Shown here: piece after piece, positions 1 through 10,984 of the stretch
How positions within the stretch are numbered: position 1 is the stretch's first letter
How the letters are laid out: each line of letters starts with the position of its first letter
Source of the DNA: Desulfuromonas sp. SDB
GTDB taxonomy: Bacteria > SDB-A
NCBI GenBank assembly: GCA_001412365.1
Contig: LKUE01000170.1
Location: forward strand, 1-10,984
Direction of reading: 5' to 3'
Length of the DNA: 10,984 bases
Translations under genes and position numbers: made by a program
Notes under the pieces: model-generated
What the model saw: only the letters and a program-made list of their open reading frames with translations
Databases searched by the model: none
Told to the model about the DNA's origin: nothing

Positions 1-1370
1 CTTATCCGGTCGAAAAAACCGATATGAGCAATTTGATAGTTCATTTCCTGATGCTGTTTCCAGGCGATACTGATGCCGGATATTGCACAAGCTTGTTCAA
101 TGAGTTTTTCCGCTTGACTCTCAGGCAGATAGGTTGGATTCAGGGTCTTATTGGCAATGTAATCACGAATTTGATGTTCAGTGAAATTATGAGGAAGATA
201 GCCCTGAATGTTTTTTATCCCCTGTTCAGCTAAAATCTGGGATAGTGAATAACTCATCCCGATATTTGCGGATACACTTCGGGTGAAATCCCCTTGAACA
301 TAGGAAAATACATCGGTGGTTGCTCCTCCCATATCCACCAGGACAATATTTTGACCACGGTGTTTGCCGTATAATTTTAAAATATTTTCCACTCCGGAAG
401 GGGTGGGGATTATATCTGTTTTTACCCATTTTTTTACTTCTGAATATCCTGGCGCCCTCTCCATCACATTATCCATAAACAGCTGGTGAATTTTTTTCTT
501 AGCAGGTTCAATATTTATGGTATCAACATCAGGTCTGATGTTTTCAACTTGGTGAACATCAAAGGTCTCATCTAAGCTTGAACTGATAAATTTCCGGGCA
601 TCTTTATTGCCAGCGTATATCAAGGGTATCTTATCTCCGGTGGCAAATTTTGGAGTGGGATTGGATAAACTTAATATCTCTGCAATTCTGGTTACGCTGG
701 CAATATTACCTCCATCCATTCCTCCTGCAATAAAAATCAGATCAGGATGCAAATCCCTGATCATTTTCATTTTATTAATCACCGGTATCTGGTCATCCAC
801 TGTAAAAGTTTTAAGAATCACTCCACCTGCTCCATAAATTGTATATTCAGCAGTTTTTCCGGTATCAAAAGAGGTGATTCCAAATGCCAATATCTGCAGA
901 CCTCCCCCTGCTGAACTGGTGGTGATATAGGGTATTTTTATTTTTTTCTTGGGAGTAAGTATTTTAATTCCGGTTTTCTTTTCCAGCAGTTCAGCCGCCT
1001 GCAGTATTCCGACTTTAACATCTTCAGTTGGTTTTTCTACAGTGGTAGGTACATTTGCTTCATCAATTATTTTAAATTCATCTTTAATCTTGGAAACAAT
1101 TATTGCTTTAGTGGTAGTGCTGCCAATATCACTTATCATTATATTTTTATAATTCAATAATTTACTGACCACATTGCCCATCCAGAATAAATCATCCAGT
1201 GTGCGGTTTAATGCCAGGGAAATGTCAATGCATAGTTTCAAAGATGGGTTGAAATTATCAGACTCAATTAATCCTACAGTTTGTCTGGTAATACCTACTT
1301 TTTCAGCCAGTTCAGCTTGAGTTAGACTGCATTCTAACCTAGCCTGTTTTATCTTTTCTCCAAAGGACAT
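1..1370 (-). CDS. XRE-family HTH fused to MutL/GlmL-type ASKHA ATPase (3'-partial)
   Basis: The reading frame runs unbroken from ATG at 1370 off the left end, giving at least 456 residues. Residues about 5-63 are a small XRE/Cro HTH of the YozG-like kind, with LTQAELAEKVGITRQTV, then ESDNFNPSL and the usual TLDDLFW ending. From about residue 77 the protein is MutL/GlmL family. It shows phosphate-1 motif DIGSTTTK (81-88), a TSSAGGGL block, AGGMDGGN, YAGNKDA, IPTPSGV and phosphate-2 motif DMGGATTD (346-353). MutL-type proteins are ASKHA ATPases found beside B12-dependent glutamate mutase and aminomutases, where they are thought to act as reactivating chaperones. A good Shine-Dalgarno supports the upstream start; the internal ATG at 1139, where an ordinary MutL would begin, has none. 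The fusion is directly visible. Its role as a DNA-binding, ATP-sensing regulator is inference. The C-terminus and the next gene leftwards are not seen. Confidence 0.88.
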   Translation of the reverse strand, partial: MSFGEKIKQARLECSLTQAELAEKVGITRQTVGLIESDNFNPSLKLCIDISLALNRTLDDLFWMGNVVSKLLNYKNIMISDIGSTTTKAIIVSKIKDEFKIIDEANVPTTVEKPTEDVKVGILQAAELLEKKTGIKILTPKKKIKIPYITTSSAGGGLQILAFGITSFDTGKTAEYTIYGAGGVILKTFTVDDQIPVINKMKMIRDLHPDLIFIAGGMDGGNIASVTRIAEILSLSNPTPKFATGDKIPLIYAGNKDARKFISSSLDETFDVHQVENIRPDVDTINIEPAKKKIHQLFMDNVMERAPGYSEVKKWVKTDIIPTPSGVENILKLYGKHRGQNIVLVDMGGATTDVFSYVQGDFTRSVSANIGMSYSLSQILAEQGIKNIQGYLPHNFTEHQIRDYIANKTLNPTYLPESQAEKLIEQACAISGISIAWKQHQEMNYQIAHIGFFDRI

Positions 1371-1374
1371 ATTT

Positions 1375-1383
1375 ATCACCCCT
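1375..1383 (-). promoter_or_regulatory. Shine-Dalgarno that fixes the HTH-MutL start
   Basis: On the minus strand AGGGGTGAT ends five bases before the ATG at 1370, with the AGGGG core eight bases away. It is among the best ribosome binding sites in the window, and it places translation initiation before the HTH domain rather than at the MutL domain. Confidence 0.75.
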
Positions 1384-1427
1384 AAGTAAAGTATAAATTA
1401 CTAATGCAAATTATATATTACAATTTT

Positions 1428-1456
1428 AATTTAATATTTCTTTTCAGCAAAGTCAA
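1428..1456 (-). promoter_or_regulatory. Candidate sigma-70 promoter for HTH-MutL
   Basis: Minus strand TTGACT (1456-1451, five of six bases) is followed after 17 bases by TAAATT (1433-1428, four of six). The predicted start near 1421 would leave a leader of about 50 bases carrying the Shine-Dalgarno. The surrounding 129-base divergent spacer is nearly all A and T, so chance matches are likely and the call is tentative. Confidence 0.4.
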
Positions 1457-1499: not shown

Positions 1500-2402
1500 A
1501 TGAATTTTATTATTGAAAATATAGGTAAACTTTCAGCATTGATGGTGGCTGTGTGCTGGACCGTTACTGCTATGTCCTTTGAGTCAGCGGGGAAAAGGGT
1601 GGGATCGCTAGCAGTTAACTATATTAGATTAATTATTGCCTTAATTTTATTCACGGTAACCTCAGTTATATTAAGAGGAATGATAGTGCCGGTTGATGCC
1701 AGCAGGCATGTCTGGATGTGGTTGTTAATTTCCGGTCTAATTGGATTTGTTATCGGTGATTTGTTCTTATTTAAAGCATTTGTAACAATTGGAGCTAGAA
1801 TTTCAATGCTGATTATGTCCTCAGTGCCTCCCATTACTGCTTTAATCGGTTGGTGGTTACTGGGAGAAACATTAACCTGGATAAAAATGTTAGGGATGGT
1901 GGTAACTTTAGTGGGTATTTCCATGGTAATTTTAGAAAAAGAACAGGGACAGAAAAAATTTAAATTATCTAAATCAGTTCTGGGAATATCCTTTGCTTTT
2001 ATTGGTTCAGTGGGTCAGGCAATTGGGCTGGTATTAAGTAAATTCGGAATGCAGTCCTACAATGCCTTTTCCGCAACCCATATCAGGATTATTGCAGGAG
2101 TAATCGGTTTTACTGTATTATTTACAATTTTAAATAGATGGGCAAGAGTTAAACAATCCTTATTTAACCGAACTGCCCTTTCTCGAATTACCCTGGGAGC
2201 TTTTTTCGGTCCTTTTATTGGAGTAACCTTATCTCTATATGCGGTACAACATATTGAAACCGGAGTAGCTTCTACATTGATGGCTTTAGTTCCAGTTATC
2301 ATTATCATACCTTCAGTAGCTATAATGAAAGAAAAAATTACATTTAAGGAAGTGGGGGGAGCGATAATTGCAGTTTCAGGAGTGGGATTATTGTTTTTAT
2401 AA
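1500..2402 (+). CDS. EamA/DMT-superfamily transporter, ten-TM type
   Basis: A 300-residue integral membrane protein built of two EamA repeats, about residues 12-146 and 160-300, each with roughly five hydrophobic segments. Each repeat ends with the family's typical arrangement: VPPITALIGWWLLGETLTW (109-127) in the first and VPVIIIIPSVAIMKEKITF (264-282) in the second, followed by a final glycine-rich helix. Length and layout match full-size drug/metabolite transporters of the inner membrane, which usually export amino acids or other small metabolites. The substrate cannot be read from sequence. The start at 1500 suits the family N-terminus but has only a weak upstream GTGAT as ribosome binding site. 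It is divergent from the HTH-MutL gene across 129 bases, so co-regulation by that HTH is possible but not shown. Confidence 0.9.
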   Translation: MNFIIENIGKLSALMVAVCWTVTAMSFESAGKRVGSLAVNYIRLIIALILFTVTSVILRGMIVPVDASRHVWMWLLISGLIGFVIGDLFLFKAFVTIGARISMLIMSSVPPITALIGWWLLGETLTWIKMLGMVVTLVGISMVILEKEQGQKKFKLSKSVLGISFAFIGSVGQAIGLVLSKFGMQSYNAFSATHIRIIAGVIGFTVLFTILNRWARVKQSLFNRTALSRITLGAFFGPFIGVTLSLYAVQHIETGVASTLMALVPVIIIIPSVAIMKEKITFKEVGGAIIAVSGVGLLFL

Positions 2403-4150: not shown

Positions 4151-4720
4151 ATGAACAAAAGCAATAATGATTTAAATTCTTCATCCCCCCCTGAGAGAAA
4201 GATTCTGGTAAAACATAGAATATTACAAGTTGCTGCGATGATTTTAGTTATAATAATTAGCATTATCCTTATTTCACAGAAGCAGGCAATTGCCGGGCTT
4301 TCCCATTATGGATACATTGGAATTTTTTTAATTTCAGTATTGTCCGCCAGCACAGTGTTTTTTCCGGTTCCGGGAATAATATTGATAATTAGTTTTGGGG
4401 CAATATTCAATCCTTTCTGGGTGGGATTAATATCAGGGATAGGATCTACTCTTGGTGAAATTACTGCATATATATTTGGATATGGAGGCAGATTCACTGT
4501 TGAACAGAATAAATACTATCCAAAAATGGTTAGTTGGATGAAGAGATGGGGAGGATGGACTATCCTGGTATTAGCTCTAATCCCCAATCCTCTTTTTGAT
4601 CTGGCGGGGACAGTGGCGGGTATTTTAAAATATCCCCTTTGGAAATTTTTTATCTATGGTGCCCTAGGAAGAATCCCCAAGCACTTTATTTTTGCTTTTA
4701 TTGGCTATTTTTGGTTTTAG
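4151..4720 (+). CDS. VTT-domain (SNARE-associated/DedA-superfamily) inner-membrane protein
   Basis: A 189-residue polytopic membrane protein. After a polar, basic N-terminus (1-23) there is a hydrophobic helix (24-42), then the VTT core. The core shows FFPVPG (70-75), a glycine-rich helix with GEITAYIFGYGGR (102-114), IPNPLFDLAGTVAGIL (144-159) and a final helix after LGR (172-174). VTT/DedA proteins are reentrant-loop membrane proteins implicated in lipid scrambling or flipping and in proton-motive-force homeostasis; this one is nearest the YqaA/SNARE-associated group by its PNPxFDxAG block. Its last 57 bases overlap the 3' end of the convergent patatin gene. No clear Shine-Dalgarno lies at the usual distance from the ATG (AGGTG is about 19 bases away), so the exact start is less certain. 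Confidence 0.85.
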   Translation: MNKSNNDLNSSSPPERKILVKHRILQVAAMILVIIISIILISQKQAIAGLSHYGYIGIFLISVLSASTVFFPVPGIILIISFGAIFNPFWVGLISGIGSTLGEITAYIFGYGGRFTVEQNKYYPKMVSWMKRWGGWTILVLALIPNPLFDLAGTVAGILKYPLWKFFIYGALGRIPKHFIFAFIGYFWF

Positions 4721-5560
4721 ATGAAAATATTTTACCAGGCATTTTTCCAGCCGCTGGCAATCCTGTTTGCTGTCAGAAATTATTTCATTTATTTTATGGA
4801 AGTCCAATATTTCAATTCTGGATAATTTGGGTTTTATATAGAGATCCGGCTTAATTAATTTGATTTTATTATTTACAATGGTAGTTTCCATGATTGCAAA
4901 TGAGTTTAAGATAACTTCAATAAATCCAGGCTTTTCCCCTTTGTTTTCTCTGCTGTTTTCTCCGGTAACATCAATGGCGATTAAATAATCACAATCATCT
5001 ACAATAACGTCATAAGGAACTGGATTAACTGCTCCTCCGTCGGTTAGTACTTTCTCATCAACAATTACCGGTTCAAAAATTCCGGGAATGGAAATACTGG
5101 CTCTTACTGCCTGAGTTAAATCACCGGAGTTGAAAACCAAGGGCTTTCTATCCCAAAAATCAGTAGCCACTACTTTTAAAGGAATGTCCAGATCTTCAAA
5201 TTTATCTTTTCTAACATGTTGTTTGAATACTTCTAAAATTTTTTGTCCTTTGATAAAACTTTTATTGGAAGTCCAGGAAAAATCCAGAAGACTGCTCCAT
5301 TTGAAAAAATTTAAATCAGAAAAGGCCTGTTCAATTTCTTCAGCAGTTAAACCTGAACAGTAAAGACCGCCAATTAACGCTCCAATACTGGTTCCGGAAA
5401 TTACAGAAGGTTTGACCTCAAGATCATCAAAAACTTTTAAAAATCCTATATGGCAGAGCCCCCGGGCTCCTCCTCCTCCCAATGCCAACCCAATTCTAAA
5501 TTTGCCCGAAGCAAAAACTTTTTTTAGTTTTGTTAAAAACTGTTTAGGGTAAATTTTCAT
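4664..5560 (-). CDS. Patatin-like phospholipase, RssA-type (cytosolic)
   Basis: A 298-residue patatin-family serine hydrolase, close in length to E. coli RssA. The oxyanion-hole loop GGGARG is at 29-34, the nucleophile elbow GTSIG at 56-60 (Ser58) and the dyad aspartate in DGG at 174-176 (Asp174). RASISIPGIF (153-162) is also typical. There is no signal peptide or transmembrane segment, so it is probably cytosolic or peripheral; its natural substrate is unknown. Patatins hydrolyse acyl esters of lipids through a Ser-Asp dyad. The final 19 codons lie antisense to the VTT gene and form a lysine- and asparagine-rich tail outside the patatin domain. Its first 80 residues closely resemble the patatin domain of the type Vd protein at 6322-8535. 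The ATG at 5560 lacks a strong Shine-Dalgarno. Confidence 0.92.
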   Translation of the reverse strand: MKIYPKQFLTKLKKVFASGKFRIGLALGGGGARGLCHIGFLKVFDDLEVKPSVISGTSIGALIGGLYCSGLTAEEIEQAFSDLNFFKWSSLLDFSWTSNKSFIKGQKILEVFKQHVRKDKFEDLDIPLKVVATDFWDRKPLVFNSGDLTQAVRASISIPGIFEPVIVDEKVLTDGGAVNPVPYDVIVDDCDYLIAIDVTGENSRENKGEKPGFIEVILNSFAIMETTIVNNKIKLIKPDLYIKPKLSRIEILDFHKINEIISDSKQDCQRLEKCLVKYFHLKPKIANKSKNKVLGDSS

Positions 5561-5637: not shown

Positions 5638-5689
5638 ATTATTATTGTAATTGAGGTTATTTTTATATCAGCAGAACAGGGAGAGCAAG

Positions 5690-6211
5690 ATGAAAATAAA
5701 AATTGTCATTGCAGCAGCTATTGTCATTGCAGTATTAATAGCCTGCGGCGCTTCTGAACCGGAGTGGAAGCAGTTTGTCTCCGCGGATGGAAATTTTACA
5801 GTAGAAGCACCCGGAGACCCCGAAATTGAAGATAGTCCCATAGAAACTCCTTTAGGCAATCTCACCATTAGAATGTATGTCTGGGACTTGGGAGACATTG
5901 CTTATTTAGCTGCTTATGTTGATTATCCCCATGAAATATTCGACTATCAAACTCCCCAGGAGTTGCTGGATTATGCTGCAGATGGAGCGGTGGAAGGAGT
6001 TTCAGGAAACTTAGTTAGTAAAACTCCAATTTCCTATGAACAACATCTCGGATTGGAATTGAAAATAAATGCTCCTGCTGATGATGCTGTTGCTATGGCC
6101 AGGATTTATCTGGTAGATAACCGCTTATACCAGGTTCTTGTGGTTACCTATATTGGAGAAGAAAAACCTGAAAAGACCGCTAGATTTTTAGATTCATTTA
6201 AAATTAATTAA
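5690..6211 (+). CDS. Small lipoprotein, PsbP/MOG1-like fold suspected
   Basis: A 173-residue lipoprotein precursor. The ATG at 5690 is chosen because AGGGAG (5678-5683) lies six bases upstream; the TTG at 5651 would add 13 residues and swallow that ribosome binding site. The signal peptide has Lys at 2 and 4, a hydrophobic core, and the lipobox LIAC with the lipidated Cys at 19. The next residues are Gly and Ala with no Asp at +2, which in proteobacteria would send it to the outer membrane. The mature part opens with FTVEAPGDPE and ends with a conserved-looking AxFLDSFKI helix. That pattern recalls small PsbP/MOG1-like exported proteins, a family guess at low confidence. It is divergent from the RssA-like gene and convergent with the type Vd patatin. 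Function unknown. Confidence 0.85.
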   Translation: MKIKIVIAAAIVIAVLIACGASEPEWKQFVSADGNFTVEAPGDPEIEDSPIETPLGNLTIRMYVWDLGDIAYLAAYVDYPHEIFDYQTPQELLDYAADGAVEGVSGNLVSKTPISYEQHLGLELKINAPADDAVAMARIYLVDNRLYQVLVVTYIGEEKPEKTARFLDSFKIN

Positions 6212-6244: not shown

Positions 6245-6344
6245 ATGGGAATTTTGAACAGTATTTACAAAAAAAATATTTGAATTTATATATGATTTAG
6301 CTGATTATAATGAAAATATTATTAGAAATTGTGTCCTATGCTGA
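6245..6344 (+). pseudogene. Possible small ORF broken at an A8 run
   Basis: In frame the ATG gives only MGILNSIYKKNI and then TGA at 6281-6283. If one A is removed from the eight-A run, the frame continues as IFEFIYDLADYNENIIRNC and ends at TGA 6342-6344, giving 32 residues with an amphipathic look. Options are a sequencing or polymerase slip in the homopolymer, a true frameshifted remnant, a 12-residue peptide, or transcriptional slippage. The extended version would overlap the convergent type Vd gene by 23 bases. I do not recognise the protein. Confidence 0.25.
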
Positions 6345-8535
6345 TAAAGCTGTAGGTATTATCAATGTTTTTTCCGGCAAAAGAAATGTAAATTGGTCCC
6401 ATAAAAGTGTTCATCCCTGCAGAAATTCCGGCAGCAGTCTGATAGTTGGTTAATTCTCCCAGATCATCCAGCCGGGAACAAGCGCAACAGGAGTTAATCT
6501 GAGCAGAGATAAACCGGTTTGAAATAATTTCCCATTGGAATCCTATCCGCAACAGCATTAGATTTAATCCTGAAACTTCCATTCGGTCGAAACCTAAAGC
6601 AGAATTAAGTCCAGGAGTACTTTTAAAACCTCCGGTGTAAAAGCGGTACTGAATGGGGATGGTATCTCCTTCACTGATTCCTGCATATAATCCGGTGAAT
6701 AAACTCAGGTTTGAAATTACCGGCAGATATACCGAGCCATCTCCGCTAATTTGCATTAAATCGTAATATGAACCAAAATCTTTATTGAGATATCTTCCGG
6801 TTAAATTGAATTTAACTCCCCGGGATGGAAAAGCCAGCCGGTTTAATTTATCTATATCTAAAACCATGAGGTAACTTATCTGATTATAAGTTTCCTTGCT
6901 GTATTCAGGAGGAGCTACTGAAGGGTTTATTTCAACATGTTCAGCAACATAACCCAGACGGTATTGGAAATCTTTTTCTAAAATCACTCCTACTGTATTC
7001 TCTAAAAGTAATGTTTTGTATTTTAAACTGGCATACTTCCGGTTCAGCCGATAAAGGTAAAAATATTCCTGCTGGTAGCCTAAAGAAAATAAAAGATTAA
7101 TCCGGTTGGTAATATAACTGAAAGCGGTGTTTACAATGTAGTCTAAATTAATGGAATAATCCTCCCCTAGCTTAATATCCACCATCAACCTGGATCCCTT
7201 GAAGAACTTATTCCGGAAAGTTCCGTTTAGCAGCAATTTTGCATTTTGATAGGAATCATATCTTAGTCCCAGATTGAGAAAGTCATTTTTATTCTCCTCC
7301 ACTTTGATTATAAGCACATCAATGCTGTCAGTGGAATGAATAAAATAACTAACCTTTTCAAAGAACTGAGTACTGTAAATTCTATCAATTCCTTCACTCA
7401 TTAAATCCCGGTTGATCCAGCAGGGGATTTCAAATCCCAGCGCGGAAAGCACTAGATTTTGAGTTACATTCTCCAGCCCGATGACATAGATTTCACTTAT
7501 CAGTACTGAATCAGGGTTCAGCAAAGATGGATTAAAATTTTCATTTCGGGGGTGATGAACTCCCAGAGCAATCAGTTGATCGTACAATTCCATTGCCGCC
7601 GATTCTCCCTGGGCTATAAATATTTCTGCTTCATTAAAATCAAAACTGGTTAATCCCTGTAAATCAGGAATTATCAAGATATCACATAACTCTTGCTGAT
7701 GAGGATTGGTTTCAGTATTCCTGAAACCGATAGTTTGGTTGATGATGTCAATAAAATTTCCCAACTCCTGTTCGCTTTTGGGGGGAGTTCCCACATCAAC
7801 TCCAATAACCACATCCGCTCCTAAATCAAGCACATTCTGAACCGGAAAATTCAATATTGCCCCTCCATCCACTAATAGATGGCTATCAATTTGCATAGGA
7901 GTAAAAACAGTGGGTATGGACATGCTTGCTCTCATCGAAGGGGAGAGGTAACCCTGGGCTAACTCAACAGCTTCGGCACTGACCACATCTGATGCAATGC
8001 AGCGGTAGGGTATGGGGAATTGATCGAAATTGAAGTACTGATTGACCGGCCAGGTTAACCGGTCCAGCAAACTTTGAATATTCTGACCATTTATTAATCC
8101 CAGGGGTAATTGAGGAGTGAATCCGTTTAGGGGAACGGAGGCTATGTATAAATCTGCATACTGTTTCTGATCAATGGGAAGATCTGAACGGCTGATTTTA
8201 TCCTCAAACAAGCTGTTCCAGTCTTCCTGCAAGGCTAAACTTTCCAACTCCTGAGGAGATAAACCAATTGCATAAAGACCTCCCACTATACTTCCCATGC
8301 TGGTTCCCACAACATAATCGGGGGTGATCCCTGCCTGTTGAAGGACTTTTAATACTCCGATATGAGCAAAACCTCTAGCCCCTCCTCCGCTTAATACCAA
8401 TCCTATGCGCAGGGTATCTGTAGAGGGTTGATTGTTTGTTGAAGATGCAGCAAGAAAGATCATAAAAAAAATTGCTATTGCTGATTTAATTATTTTATCT
8501 GCAGGAACATATAAGTTTATTTTTAGATGAAGCAT
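6322..8535 (-). CDS. Type Vd autotransporter: patatin-POTRA-Omp85 barrel protein (PlpD-like)
   Basis: A 737-residue protein with an N-terminal signal (basic stretch to Lys17, hydrophobic 18-30, probable cleavage near AAS). The patatin domain spans about 42-325: GGGARG (50-55), GTSMG (77-81, Ser79) and DGG (223-225, Asp223). One POTRA domain follows at about 346-413 (EIYVIGLENVTQNLVLSALG), then a BamA-type barrel from about 415 ending in Phe737, the usual outer-membrane insertion signature. Architecture and length match Pseudomonas PlpD (about 730 residues), the type Vd secretion prototype, in which the barrel anchors or exports the patatin lipase at the cell surface. RFYTGGFKSTPGL (631-643) sits where Omp85 proteins carry loop L6; the usual RGF/RGY triad is not evident. 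Cys683, Cys684 and Cys686 cluster in the barrel. The ATG lacks a Shine-Dalgarno and may be read leaderless. Confidence 0.93.
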   Translation of the reverse strand: MLHLKINLYVPADKIIKSAIAIFFMIFLAASSTNNQPSTDTLRIGLVLSGGGARGFAHIGVLKVLQQAGITPDYVVGTSMGSIVGGLYAIGLSPQELESLALQEDWNSLFEDKISRSDLPIDQKQYADLYIASVPLNGFTPQLPLGLINGQNIQSLLDRLTWPVNQYFNFDQFPIPYRCIASDVVSAEAVELAQGYLSPSMRASMSIPTVFTPMQIDSHLLVDGGAILNFPVQNVLDLGADVVIGVDVGTPPKSEQELGNFIDIINQTIGFRNTETNPHQQELCDILIIPDLQGLTSFDFNEAEIFIAQGESAAMELYDQLIALGVHHPRNENFNPSLLNPDSVLISEIYVIGLENVTQNLVLSALGFEIPCWINRDLMSEGIDRIYSTQFFEKVSYFIHSTDSIDVLIIKVEENKNDFLNLGLRYDSYQNAKLLLNGTFRNKFFKGSRLMVDIKLGEDYSINLDYIVNTAFSYITNRINLLFSLGYQQEYFYLYRLNRKYASLKYKTLLLENTVGVILEKDFQYRLGYVAEHVEINPSVAPPEYSKETYNQISYLMVLDIDKLNRLAFPSRGVKFNLTGRYLNKDFGSYYDLMQISGDGSVYLPVISNLSLFTGLYAGISEGDTIPIQYRFYTGGFKSTPGLNSALGFDRMEVSGLNLMLLRIGFQWEIISNRFISAQINSCCACSRLDDLGELTNYQTAAGISAGMNTFMGPIYISFAGKNIDNTYSFISIGHNF

Positions 8536-8578: not shown

Positions 8579-9874
8579 ATGAAAGATCAATTATTAACGG
8601 TTATCGGAGGAGGAGCTTCTGGTTTGATTGCCGCCGGTTGTGCGGTAATGCAGTATAGACAAAACTTTTCCCGGGGCAATAATATCAAGGTTCAGATTCT
8701 GGAAAAAATGCATAAACCGGGATTAAAATTGGGGATTACCGGCAAAGGGCGTTGTAATCTCTCCAATACTGCTCCCTTAGATGATTTCATCGAGCATTTC
8801 AGGCCAAATCCCAAGTTTCTTTATCCCGCTTTTAATAATTTTTTTTCAGGCGAGTTAATTGAATTTTTAAATCAACAAAAGGTAAAAGTAAAAGTGGAAA
8901 GAGGAGGAAGAATTTTTCCCCAAAGTGATTCAGCCCTCCAGGTAGCTAGAACATTAATAGATTGGAATAGAAAACTGGGAGTGGATATAAACACAGGCAA
9001 TGCGGTGCAATCAGTTAAATGGGAGAAAAATAATCTCTATCCTTTTAAAATCATGGTTAAACAGAAAAAATCAATTTATCTAAGTTCAGCGGTAATTATC
9101 AGCACCGGCGGAATAACCTATCCCCTGACCGGTTCCAGTGGTGATGGTTATAAATGGGCACAGCAACTTGGCCACAGATTAATAAATCCATTACCCGATT
9201 TAGTGGGTTTATACATTGATCCTCAGCTAAATTGGGATTTCCAGGGATCAGTTAGTTTGAAAAATGTAATGATAACCCTGAGTCTGGAAAAGGATATCCA
9301 GCACCGGGAATTTGGAGAAGCCCAGCTAAGTAAAAATTTGTTTGAGGGTCCGGTAGTATTGAAATTAAGCAGATTTGCGGTGCAAGCACTACAGAGAAAA
9401 CAGCAGGTATATTTATATTTGGATTTGAAACCTGCTCTAAGTGAAAAACAATTAGACCGAAGATTAATTAAAGAATTTAACCAGCAGGGCAGTAAATCTG
9501 CAGTTAAAATATTGAAATGTCTGATCCCCCTGAAGCTTGTGGACAGCTGTTTAAGTCAAACCGGAGTCCCTAAGCATTTAAAAGGAGGTCAGCTAACCTC
9601 AATCCACAGAAAAAAAATATGTCAGTGGATAAAGTATAACCGGTTTAAGGTGAAAACCTGTCAAACCCCGGACCGGGCGATTATCACCGCAGGAGGAGTG
9701 CATACCGATGACATCAATCCAAAAACGATGATGTCAAAAATTATTCCGGGATTGTTCTTCAGCGGGGAGATAATTGATTATGCCGCAGATACCGGAGGAT
9801 TTAACCTGCAAGCTGCCTTTTCCACCGGCTGGCTTGCAGGCAAATCCAGCATTGAATATTTAAATTCTATTTAA
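8579..9874 (+). CDS. NAD(P)/FAD-dependent oxidoreductase, HI0933/BaiN (YhiN) family
   Basis: A 431-residue flavoprotein from the ATG at 8579. GGGASG (10-15) forms the FAD dinucleotide-binding loop, with the ribose-binding acidic residue in LEK (41-43). GITGKGRCNLSN (52-63) is the family signature, followed by ERGGRIFPQSDSA (107-119), STGG...TGSSGDGY in the middle, TAGGV, and a C-terminal FAD-contact block GLFFSGEIIDYAADTGGFN. The family holds HI0933/YhiN proteins and BaiN, a bile-acid dehydrogenation enzyme of gut clostridia; most members have no known substrate, so BaiN activity should not be assumed. An ATG at 8534 in the same frame adds 15 residues but precedes the probable transcription start and falls before the typical family N-terminus. 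Neither start has a clear Shine-Dalgarno. The stop overlaps that of the convergent acidic-protein gene. Confidence 0.9.
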   Translation: MKDQLLTVIGGGASGLIAAGCAVMQYRQNFSRGNNIKVQILEKMHKPGLKLGITGKGRCNLSNTAPLDDFIEHFRPNPKFLYPAFNNFFSGELIEFLNQQKVKVKVERGGRIFPQSDSALQVARTLIDWNRKLGVDINTGNAVQSVKWEKNNLYPFKIMVKQKKSIYLSSAVIISTGGITYPLTGSSGDGYKWAQQLGHRLINPLPDLVGLYIDPQLNWDFQGSVSLKNVMITLSLEKDIQHREFGEAQLSKNLFEGPVVLKLSRFAVQALQRKQQVYLYLDLKPALSEKQLDRRLIKEFNQQGSKSAVKILKCLIPLKLVDSCLSQTGVPKHLKGGQLTSIHRKKICQWIKYNRFKVKTCQTPDRAIITAGGVHTDDINPKTMMSKIIPGLFFSGEIIDYAADTGGFNLQAAFSTGWLAGKSSIEYLNSI

Positions 9875-10392
9875 ATTTCTTCAATGCTGTCCAGGATAGC
9901 TTCAACCACATCTCCGTATTCATCCATATCATCTTCATTCGCCAGGACAATTAAAAATACAATGTTATCACTGCTTCTCTGAAATGATGCTATAAACACC
10001 ACATAATCATCCTCATCAGTGTCCAGCAGTCCCGCAGCTCCGAAAACGGGCATACCATCTATTTCATCCTGAAATACTTCTTCTTCTAATTCAACTACCC
10101 CCTCCGATTGGACTTCCAGTTCATCCACTGCCGCTTCTACCATAATCTCAAATAATTCTTCGTCCAGACTATTTCCATCCTCATCTTCAATAGCATTAAA
10201 GGACAACACCACATCTGCTTCAGTGTGATTTATGATCATTTGAGTACCGTAAAGTTCATACTCCCAGTCCGAGGGTACCCATATTTCAATTTCTGCAGCA
10301 GAATACTCTATTTTTTCAGCATTTAAACTTAAGGCAGAAATGCAGGTTAAAACAACTAATCCCGCTCCTAATAGCAACTTCTTGGATAACAT
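9871..10392 (-). CDS. Extremely acidic exported protein, PsbP/DcrB-like fold suspected
   Basis: A 173-residue precursor with a clear signal peptide (MLSKK, hydrophobic core, probable cleavage after LNA at residue 24). Cys17 is not in a proper lipobox (VLTC), so export as a soluble periplasmic or secreted protein is more likely than lipidation. The mature 149 residues contain about 45 Asp/Glu but only one Lys and one Arg. The order of elements (VPSDWEYEL near the start, an acidic helical region, a DGMPVFGAAG strand, VVFIASFQ, VFLIVLA, final helix VVEAILDSIEEI) recalls PsbP/MOG1/DcrB-like proteins; this is pattern recognition only. An AAAGGAG Shine-Dalgarno (10405-10399) six bases before the ATG fixes the start. 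Function unknown. Confidence 0.8.
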   Translation of the reverse strand: MLSKKLLLGAGLVVLTCISALSLNAEKIEYSAAEIEIWVPSDWEYELYGTQMIINHTEADVVLSFNAIEDEDGNSLDEELFEIMVEAAVDELEVQSEGVVELEEEVFQDEIDGMPVFGAAGLLDTDEDDYVVFIASFQRSSDNIVFLIVLANEDDMDEYGDVVEAILDSIEEI

Positions 10393-10466: not shown

Positions 10467-10984
10467 TTAGATCATCTTCATGGTTCCCTTGCTGAAACTG
10501 ACCTCCTGGGTGAAGACCATCGCCCCTTGTTTTTTATTGAGATCACCGGTGATTTTTTCAATTCCCTCGATAAGTTTTTGTTCCTGGGTTTCAGGGATAA
10601 GAGTAATGATGGTTTTACTTTGATTTTTATTTTCCTTCATGAAACCGATAAAGCTGGCGAAAAGGGGAATATTTGAAATATACTGCCCCATCCCGTAGGA
10701 TTCAATAATAGTGGCTCCCTCAATTCCGTTTTCCAGCAGGTATTCCAAGATATCATAAAGAAATTCTTCAACATACAAGATTATGTGAAGAAGCTTGTAT
10801 TTTTTTATTTTAATTTCAGCTATTTCCTCCATCCGGGTATTTCTGATGAATGCTTCGTAAACAGCAAGTTTAGTGGGAGCATTGACCAGTTCTTTTTTAA
10901 ATCCACTTTGAGAAAGTAGCCGGGAAAGACTGGCCAGAATTTTCAAGTGTTCTCCGACATTGGTTGAGGGTCCCACCAGCACAA
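10467..10984 (-). CDS. PTS EIIA (type 2) domain fused to PII-like domain (5'-partial)
   Basis: About 172 C-terminal residues are visible; the frame is open at the right edge, so the GTG at 10982 is not taken as the start. The first 50 residues (LVGPSTNVGEHLKILASLSRL, then an NAPTKLAVYEAF helix) match the end of a fructose/nitrogen-type EIIA domain. The phosphorylated His would lie upstream and is not seen. After a linker, about residues 60-171 read as a PII-like ferredoxin fold: strand KLLHIILY, helix EEFLYDILEYLLENGI, strand ATIIESYGMG, a T-loop-like segment, strand KTIITLIPE, helix, strand AMVFTQEVSF. The T-loop lacks the uridylylated Tyr context of GlnB. PII and EIIA domains are cytosolic sensors that often control a transporter; a transport gene just outside the window would be a reasonable expectation, but this is inference. 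Confidence 0.75.
   Translation of the reverse strand, partial: VLVGPSTNVGEHLKILASLSRLLSQSGFKKELVNAPTKLAVYEAFIRNTRMEEIAEIKIKKYKLLHIILYVEEFLYDILEYLLENGIEGATIIESYGMGQYISNIPLFASFIGFMKENKNQSKTIITLIPETQEQKLIEGIEKITGDLNKKQGAMVFTQEVSFSKGTMKMI

Follow-up and report, generated by a model that had tools for sequence, protein, structure and literature searches.

ROK repressors such as NagC and Mlc combine an N-terminal helix-turn-helix (HTH) with an ASKHA-fold body. PF00480 is the domain that defines the ROK family (PMC4856308). In the trigger enzymes PutA, BirA and NadR, a DNA-binding domain is attached to a body that is metabolic or uses ATP. PutA regulates its own promoter together with a divergent transporter gene, putP, and the spacer separating putA from putP is its only binding site (PMC8249747). 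GlmL and Or-4, the accessory ATPases of glutamate mutase and ornithine aminomutase, are PF13941 (MutL-family) ATPases of about 460 aa that have neither an HTH nor a further C-terminal part and are encoded beside mutase subunits. The same ATPase family occurs in the MutL-partner-DUF6754 operon (PF13941 with PF20539), where the components are separate genes, membrane genes lie downstream and no HTH is present. In the literature searched, we found no paper naming DUF6754 and no description of an HTH-MutL fusion.

The window, that is, the whole stretch of DNA analysed, is one complete contig of 10,984 bases (G000:C170). An open frame on its minus strand spans 3..1379, with 459 codons visible before it is truncated by the contig end. 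The first ATG downstream of AGGGGTGA, at position 1370, is the best-supported and likely start of the gene (3..1370, −), whose 3’ end lies beyond the contig end. This single frame encodes an XRE/CylR2-type HTH followed by a MutL-family ASKHA ATPase. Specifically, the HTH occupies residues 10–64 of the 459-codon frame (1188..1352, −) and passes the Pfam HTH_3 cut-off (49.8 vs 23 bits), and the MutL domain occupies residues 81–450 (30..1139, −; PF13941 positions 2–362 of 450, the end missing; 274 bits against the curated cut-off of 27). The linker between them (1140..1187, −) corresponds to a low-confidence, flexible segment in the model of a homologue. Alignment with GlmL from Peptoclostridium acidaminophilum indicates that the ATP-site motifs are intact: the phosphate-1 motif DIGSTTTK (1107..1130, −) aligns with GlmL DFGSTYTK, and the phosphate-2 motif DMGGATTD (312..335, −) aligns with GlmL DVGGATTD. 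The ATGs internal to the gene lack a Shine-Dalgarno sequence. The initial annotation had described an unbroken frame from HTH to ATPase and a sole good Shine-Dalgarno sequence in front of the HTH, and both observations hold, with both Pfam domains and both ASKHA motifs in frame with ATG 1370. We regard this anatomy as practically certain.

The fusion recurs. Among 386 genomes sampled across the domain, which represent a few hundred bacterial families, an HTH and MutL are joined in one frame in three others, G381, G254 and G117, which are every sampled genome of one phylum, different from that of the window. The fused proteins of these genomes are full length, at about 1020–1035 aa, and are 59% (G381, over residues 3–457), 48% (G254) and 47% (G117) identical to the window protein. 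The lack of any other carrier, which the initial annotation had named as an outcome that would speak against it, is thus not what was found. Because the same in-frame fusion is present in G381, G254 and G117, it is neither chance nor an assembly error. The possibility that a frameshift, a lost stop or an assembly chimera joined two genes draws on the fragmented state of the window assembly (433 contigs, 3.9% estimated contamination); given in-frame fusions at 47–59% identity in three independent genomes, a contig composition that matches its bin and no split version found, we rejected it, and its probability is negligible. The tetranucleotide correlation of the window contig is 0.91–0.94 with the two longer contigs of the same assembly that were compared, 0.69 with a 3.2 kb contig of that assembly and 0.84 with G381; a contaminant origin was rejected, the composition fitting the bin. 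An HI0933-like protein encoded in the window gave no informative relatives. No fusion was found on viral contigs, and the best-covering matches on plasmids begin at residue 73 or later and are GlmL-type proteins without an HTH. A single scan of GTDB contigs with short exact peptide patterns found only two headless relatives, both from Cloacimonadota; beyond the genomes and patterns covered, further fusions may exist.

The HTH head is kept by purifying selection, as judged from a comparison of G254 with G117, in which pN/pS is 0.27 for the HTH, 0.19 for the ATPase and 0.36 for the tail that follows it. The heads of all four fused proteins retain the HTH consensus, and all four also keep the HTH core and, in the recognition helix, the residues RQT. 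A strong Shine-Dalgarno sequence (AAAGGAGG) lies immediately 5’ of the head in G254 and G117. In G381, no ATG, GTG or TTG occurs from residue 46 to the ATPase, so a usual start in that stretch cannot yield the ATPase by itself. The surface of the head differs among lineages, which would suit a role in dimerisation, protein contact or nucleoid tethering instead of transcription; such a role is quite unlikely in view of the conserved core and RQT residues and of the palindromic repeats near the promoter (see below). A separate HTH gene adjacent to unfused relatives was not found in the gene neighbourhoods examined; as an exception, one HTH gene lies about 2.7 kb from the unfused relative at L079.

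Relatives of the window protein are about 950–1040 aa long; in them the MutL ATPase, with or without a head in front of it, is followed by about 450 more residues. The window gene shows under half of the protein. The missing C-terminal half was not found on other contigs of the assembly; judging from its relatives, the window gene probably also encodes this tail. This tail has its homologue in the MutL-partner-DUF6754 operon, as the product of the second gene, with 27–28% identity and with TGxE, GFG and TxIRAGxxRP invariant. Because of this homology, the fused protein is the operon pair joined into one protein, with a DNA-binding head added. The initial annotation had missed this third part, derived from the operon partner.

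The AlphaFold2 model of the G381 protein (mean pLDDT 84.8, pTM 0.79) contains a confident HTH, with blocks to 96 pLDDT, and a flexible linker, with pLDDT <50 at residues 64–71. In structure comparison of the model, the head has a P22 c2-type fold, and its closest solved chain is the small XRE repressor CylR2 (1utx), which matches the whole length of the head (Z 11.9, 65 residues, 1.9 Å); CylR2 itself is a free protein of 66 residues. The ASKHA core of the model resembles FtsA, PilM and the activators of 2-hydroxyacyl-CoA dehydratases. The modelled tail looks like barrel-sandwich domains as in RnfC and NqrA, with a swivelling domain after them that has RraA, the pyruvate kinase C-domain and rifampin phosphotransferase as neighbours; the Z scores for the tail parts are 7 to 9.6, which is near background level. 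Foldseek returned no whole-length match for the C-terminal part.

The MutL part of the fused protein shares about 42% identity with the MutL encoded in the MutL-partner-DUF6754 operon and lies nearer to it than to GlmL in the tree. Identity to GlmL and Or-4 is 25–30%. When these two serve as the outgroup, the composites group in one clade (97/99), next to the operon MutLs (98/98). The initial annotation had taken the ATPase for a mutase reactivase that might tie a mutase pathway to its own state. The protein does belong to the MutL/GlmL family; however, it falls far below both equivalog cut-offs. Specifically, the truncated window protein and the full-length G381 homologue score 201.6 and 196.9 bits with the GlmL equivalog (NF040745, cut-off 475) and 166.2 and 173.8 bits with the Or-4 equivalog (NF040744, cut-off 600). 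No mutase gene is recognisable beside the full-length fusions of G381, G254 and G117, and the DNA to the left of the window lies beyond the contig end. These genomes yielded a single kind of B12 mutase, methylmalonyl-CoA mutase, which is encoded elsewhere with its own MeaB-like ATPase. With the operon MutLs as closest kin, a regulator of a B12-dependent mutase pathway that uses a mutase reactivase as its sensor is very unlikely, and neither the sensor assignment nor the link to a mutase pathway is upheld.

The MutL-partner-DUF6754 operon is present in the window genome itself, on contig G000:C293 (L034:5018-11308), at a locus separate from the fusion, and in G003; MutL relatives occur in many sampled bacterial families. 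No DUF6754-like gene was recognised by eye among the ORFs neighbouring the fusion genes of G381, G254 and G117. Elsewhere in the window genome (G000:C381), a third, very divergent MutL-like gene overlaps a partner-like gene (L037:4721-6343 and 6319-7620), and this genome seems to contain several versions of the MutL-like/partner-like pair that evolve separately.

Composites that lack the head are found in Cloacimonadota (L040 and the incomplete L039), in the phylum of G083 (13 genomes), in that of G151 (3 genomes) and in G242. Their presence in other phyla implies that the body works without the head. In trees of the MutL domain, headed and headless forms are mixed with weak support, and the four fused proteins are scattered or unresolved. 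In the best full-length tree the four headed forms come together, which is consistent with a single clade, but without support (33/5). The head may have spread by a single gain with losses, by transfer between phyla or by several gains.

The fused protein adds a second architecture, separate from the ROK family, that joins a DNA-binding head to an ASKHA ATPase. Both its HTH and its ASKHA family differ from those of ROK repressors, and PF00480 gives no match at E 0.001 for the window protein or at E 0.05 for the G381 and G117 proteins. The suggestion of a ROK-like plan is supported in so far as the fusion is real and recurrent and is an analogue, not a member, of ROK. Like the trigger enzymes, the protein has a DNA-binding domain (here a predicted one) fused to its body, although the bodies are unrelated. 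As with putA, the fusion gene faces a divergent transporter gene, which belongs to the EamA family (1500..2402, +; Pfam EamA, 122.8 bits) and has a common intergenic region with it. The EamA gene is a possible co-regulated target of the fused protein.

Three of the four fused genes are closely preceded by tandem, often palindromic AT-rich repeats with a spacing of 19–20 bp. In the window, candidate operator copy 1, TTGTAATATATAATTT (1408..1423, −), includes a 12-mer that is unique in the window and has a near-match upstream of the G381 gene. Candidate copy 2, TAGTAATTTATACTTT (1388..1403, −), lies 20 bp from copy 1 and is identical to it at 13/16 positions, a repeat equalled in 28/1000 shuffles. 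A consensus scan places a promoter-like site, TTGACT-17-TAAATT, at 1428..1456 (−), which is weak and at chance level for an AT-rich region. In G254, the pseudo-palindrome GTATATTATACTATAC and its copy GTATATTATATTATAC are 19 bp apart and directly 5’ of the Shine-Dalgarno sequence. The G254 pair is absent elsewhere in 9 kb (0.01 sites expected by chance), and 0/1000 shuffles gave a tandem repeat as good. G117 retains the first G254 copy unchanged inside a run of 19 identical bases, although synonymous sites are almost saturated; its second copy is degenerate (48/1000 shuffles). The upstream DNA of G381 has no tandem repeat pair in the shuffle test, and a TGTAATATATA element is common to it and the window. 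Single palindromes of the window and G381 were no better than shuffles, and only the tandem repeats stood out. Several upstream tests were tried, some of them post hoc after the sequences had been viewed. A search for the operator motif upstream of the DUF6754-operon genes of the window genome gave chance-level results. We take the repeats as moderate evidence that the fused protein may bind its own promoter, and they make plausible the earlier suggestion that it regulates itself.

Our preferred reading, with evenly balanced chances, is a trigger-type, self-regulating protein comparable to PutA or BirA, whose grip on its own promoter is altered by nucleotide or partner state. In such a protein, the heads would pair and bind as dimers to the tandem AT-rich sites overlapping their own promoter, holding the fusion gene at a low level and possibly, in the window, the divergent EamA gene as well. 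The ASKHA cleft would open and close in step with nucleotide (ATP or ADP) or in response to a partner or substrate of the body, and this movement would alter how the heads are spaced or how available they are and relieve repression. Expression would thereby be coupled to how busy the composite machine is. The parts of this reading differ in strength: self-regulation by the fused protein is somewhat favoured, and the chances are a little short of even for ATP or partner state being the signal. The most far-reaching, signal-sensing reading, to which we assign a probability of about 0.4, is a hitherto undescribed class of one-component regulators in which the MutL-type ASKHA ATPase, with tail domains in common with the MutL-DUF6754 machine, senses the state of nucleotide or client and directly controls transcription from the tandem operators.

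Alternatively, the head may act as a constitutive autorepressor that sets the level of a housekeeping machine and receives no signal from the ATPase. A flexible and poorly conserved linker would be compatible with this, as would the operator-like upstream repeats and the fact that CylR2-like heads are complete repressors alone. However, the head stays fused in four genomes from two phyla, which suggests coupling, and no related HTH gene was seen directly adjoining an unfused body in the neighbourhoods examined. We consider a plain autorepressor unlikely, though less so than a head devoted to other tasks than transcription.

If the signal-sensing reading is true, the fusion represents a second, independent invention of HTH plus ASKHA beside ROK, and it provides a handle on the job of the DUF6754 system. 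The head would link a widespread MutL-partner-DUF6754 machine to a promoter, and binding or reporter assays could show what is sensed.

The remainder of the window contains a patatin fused to an Omp85-type barrel (6322-8535, −), a plan like that of the autotransporter PlpD, and a second patatin gene nearby (4664-5560). Neither of two small proteins (5651-6211, +; 9871-10392, −) matches Pfam, and both have a hydrophobic stretch at the N-terminus. A further gene (10467-10982, −), truncated by the contig end, encodes a weakly PTS EIIA-like N-terminus followed by about 120 unmatched residues.
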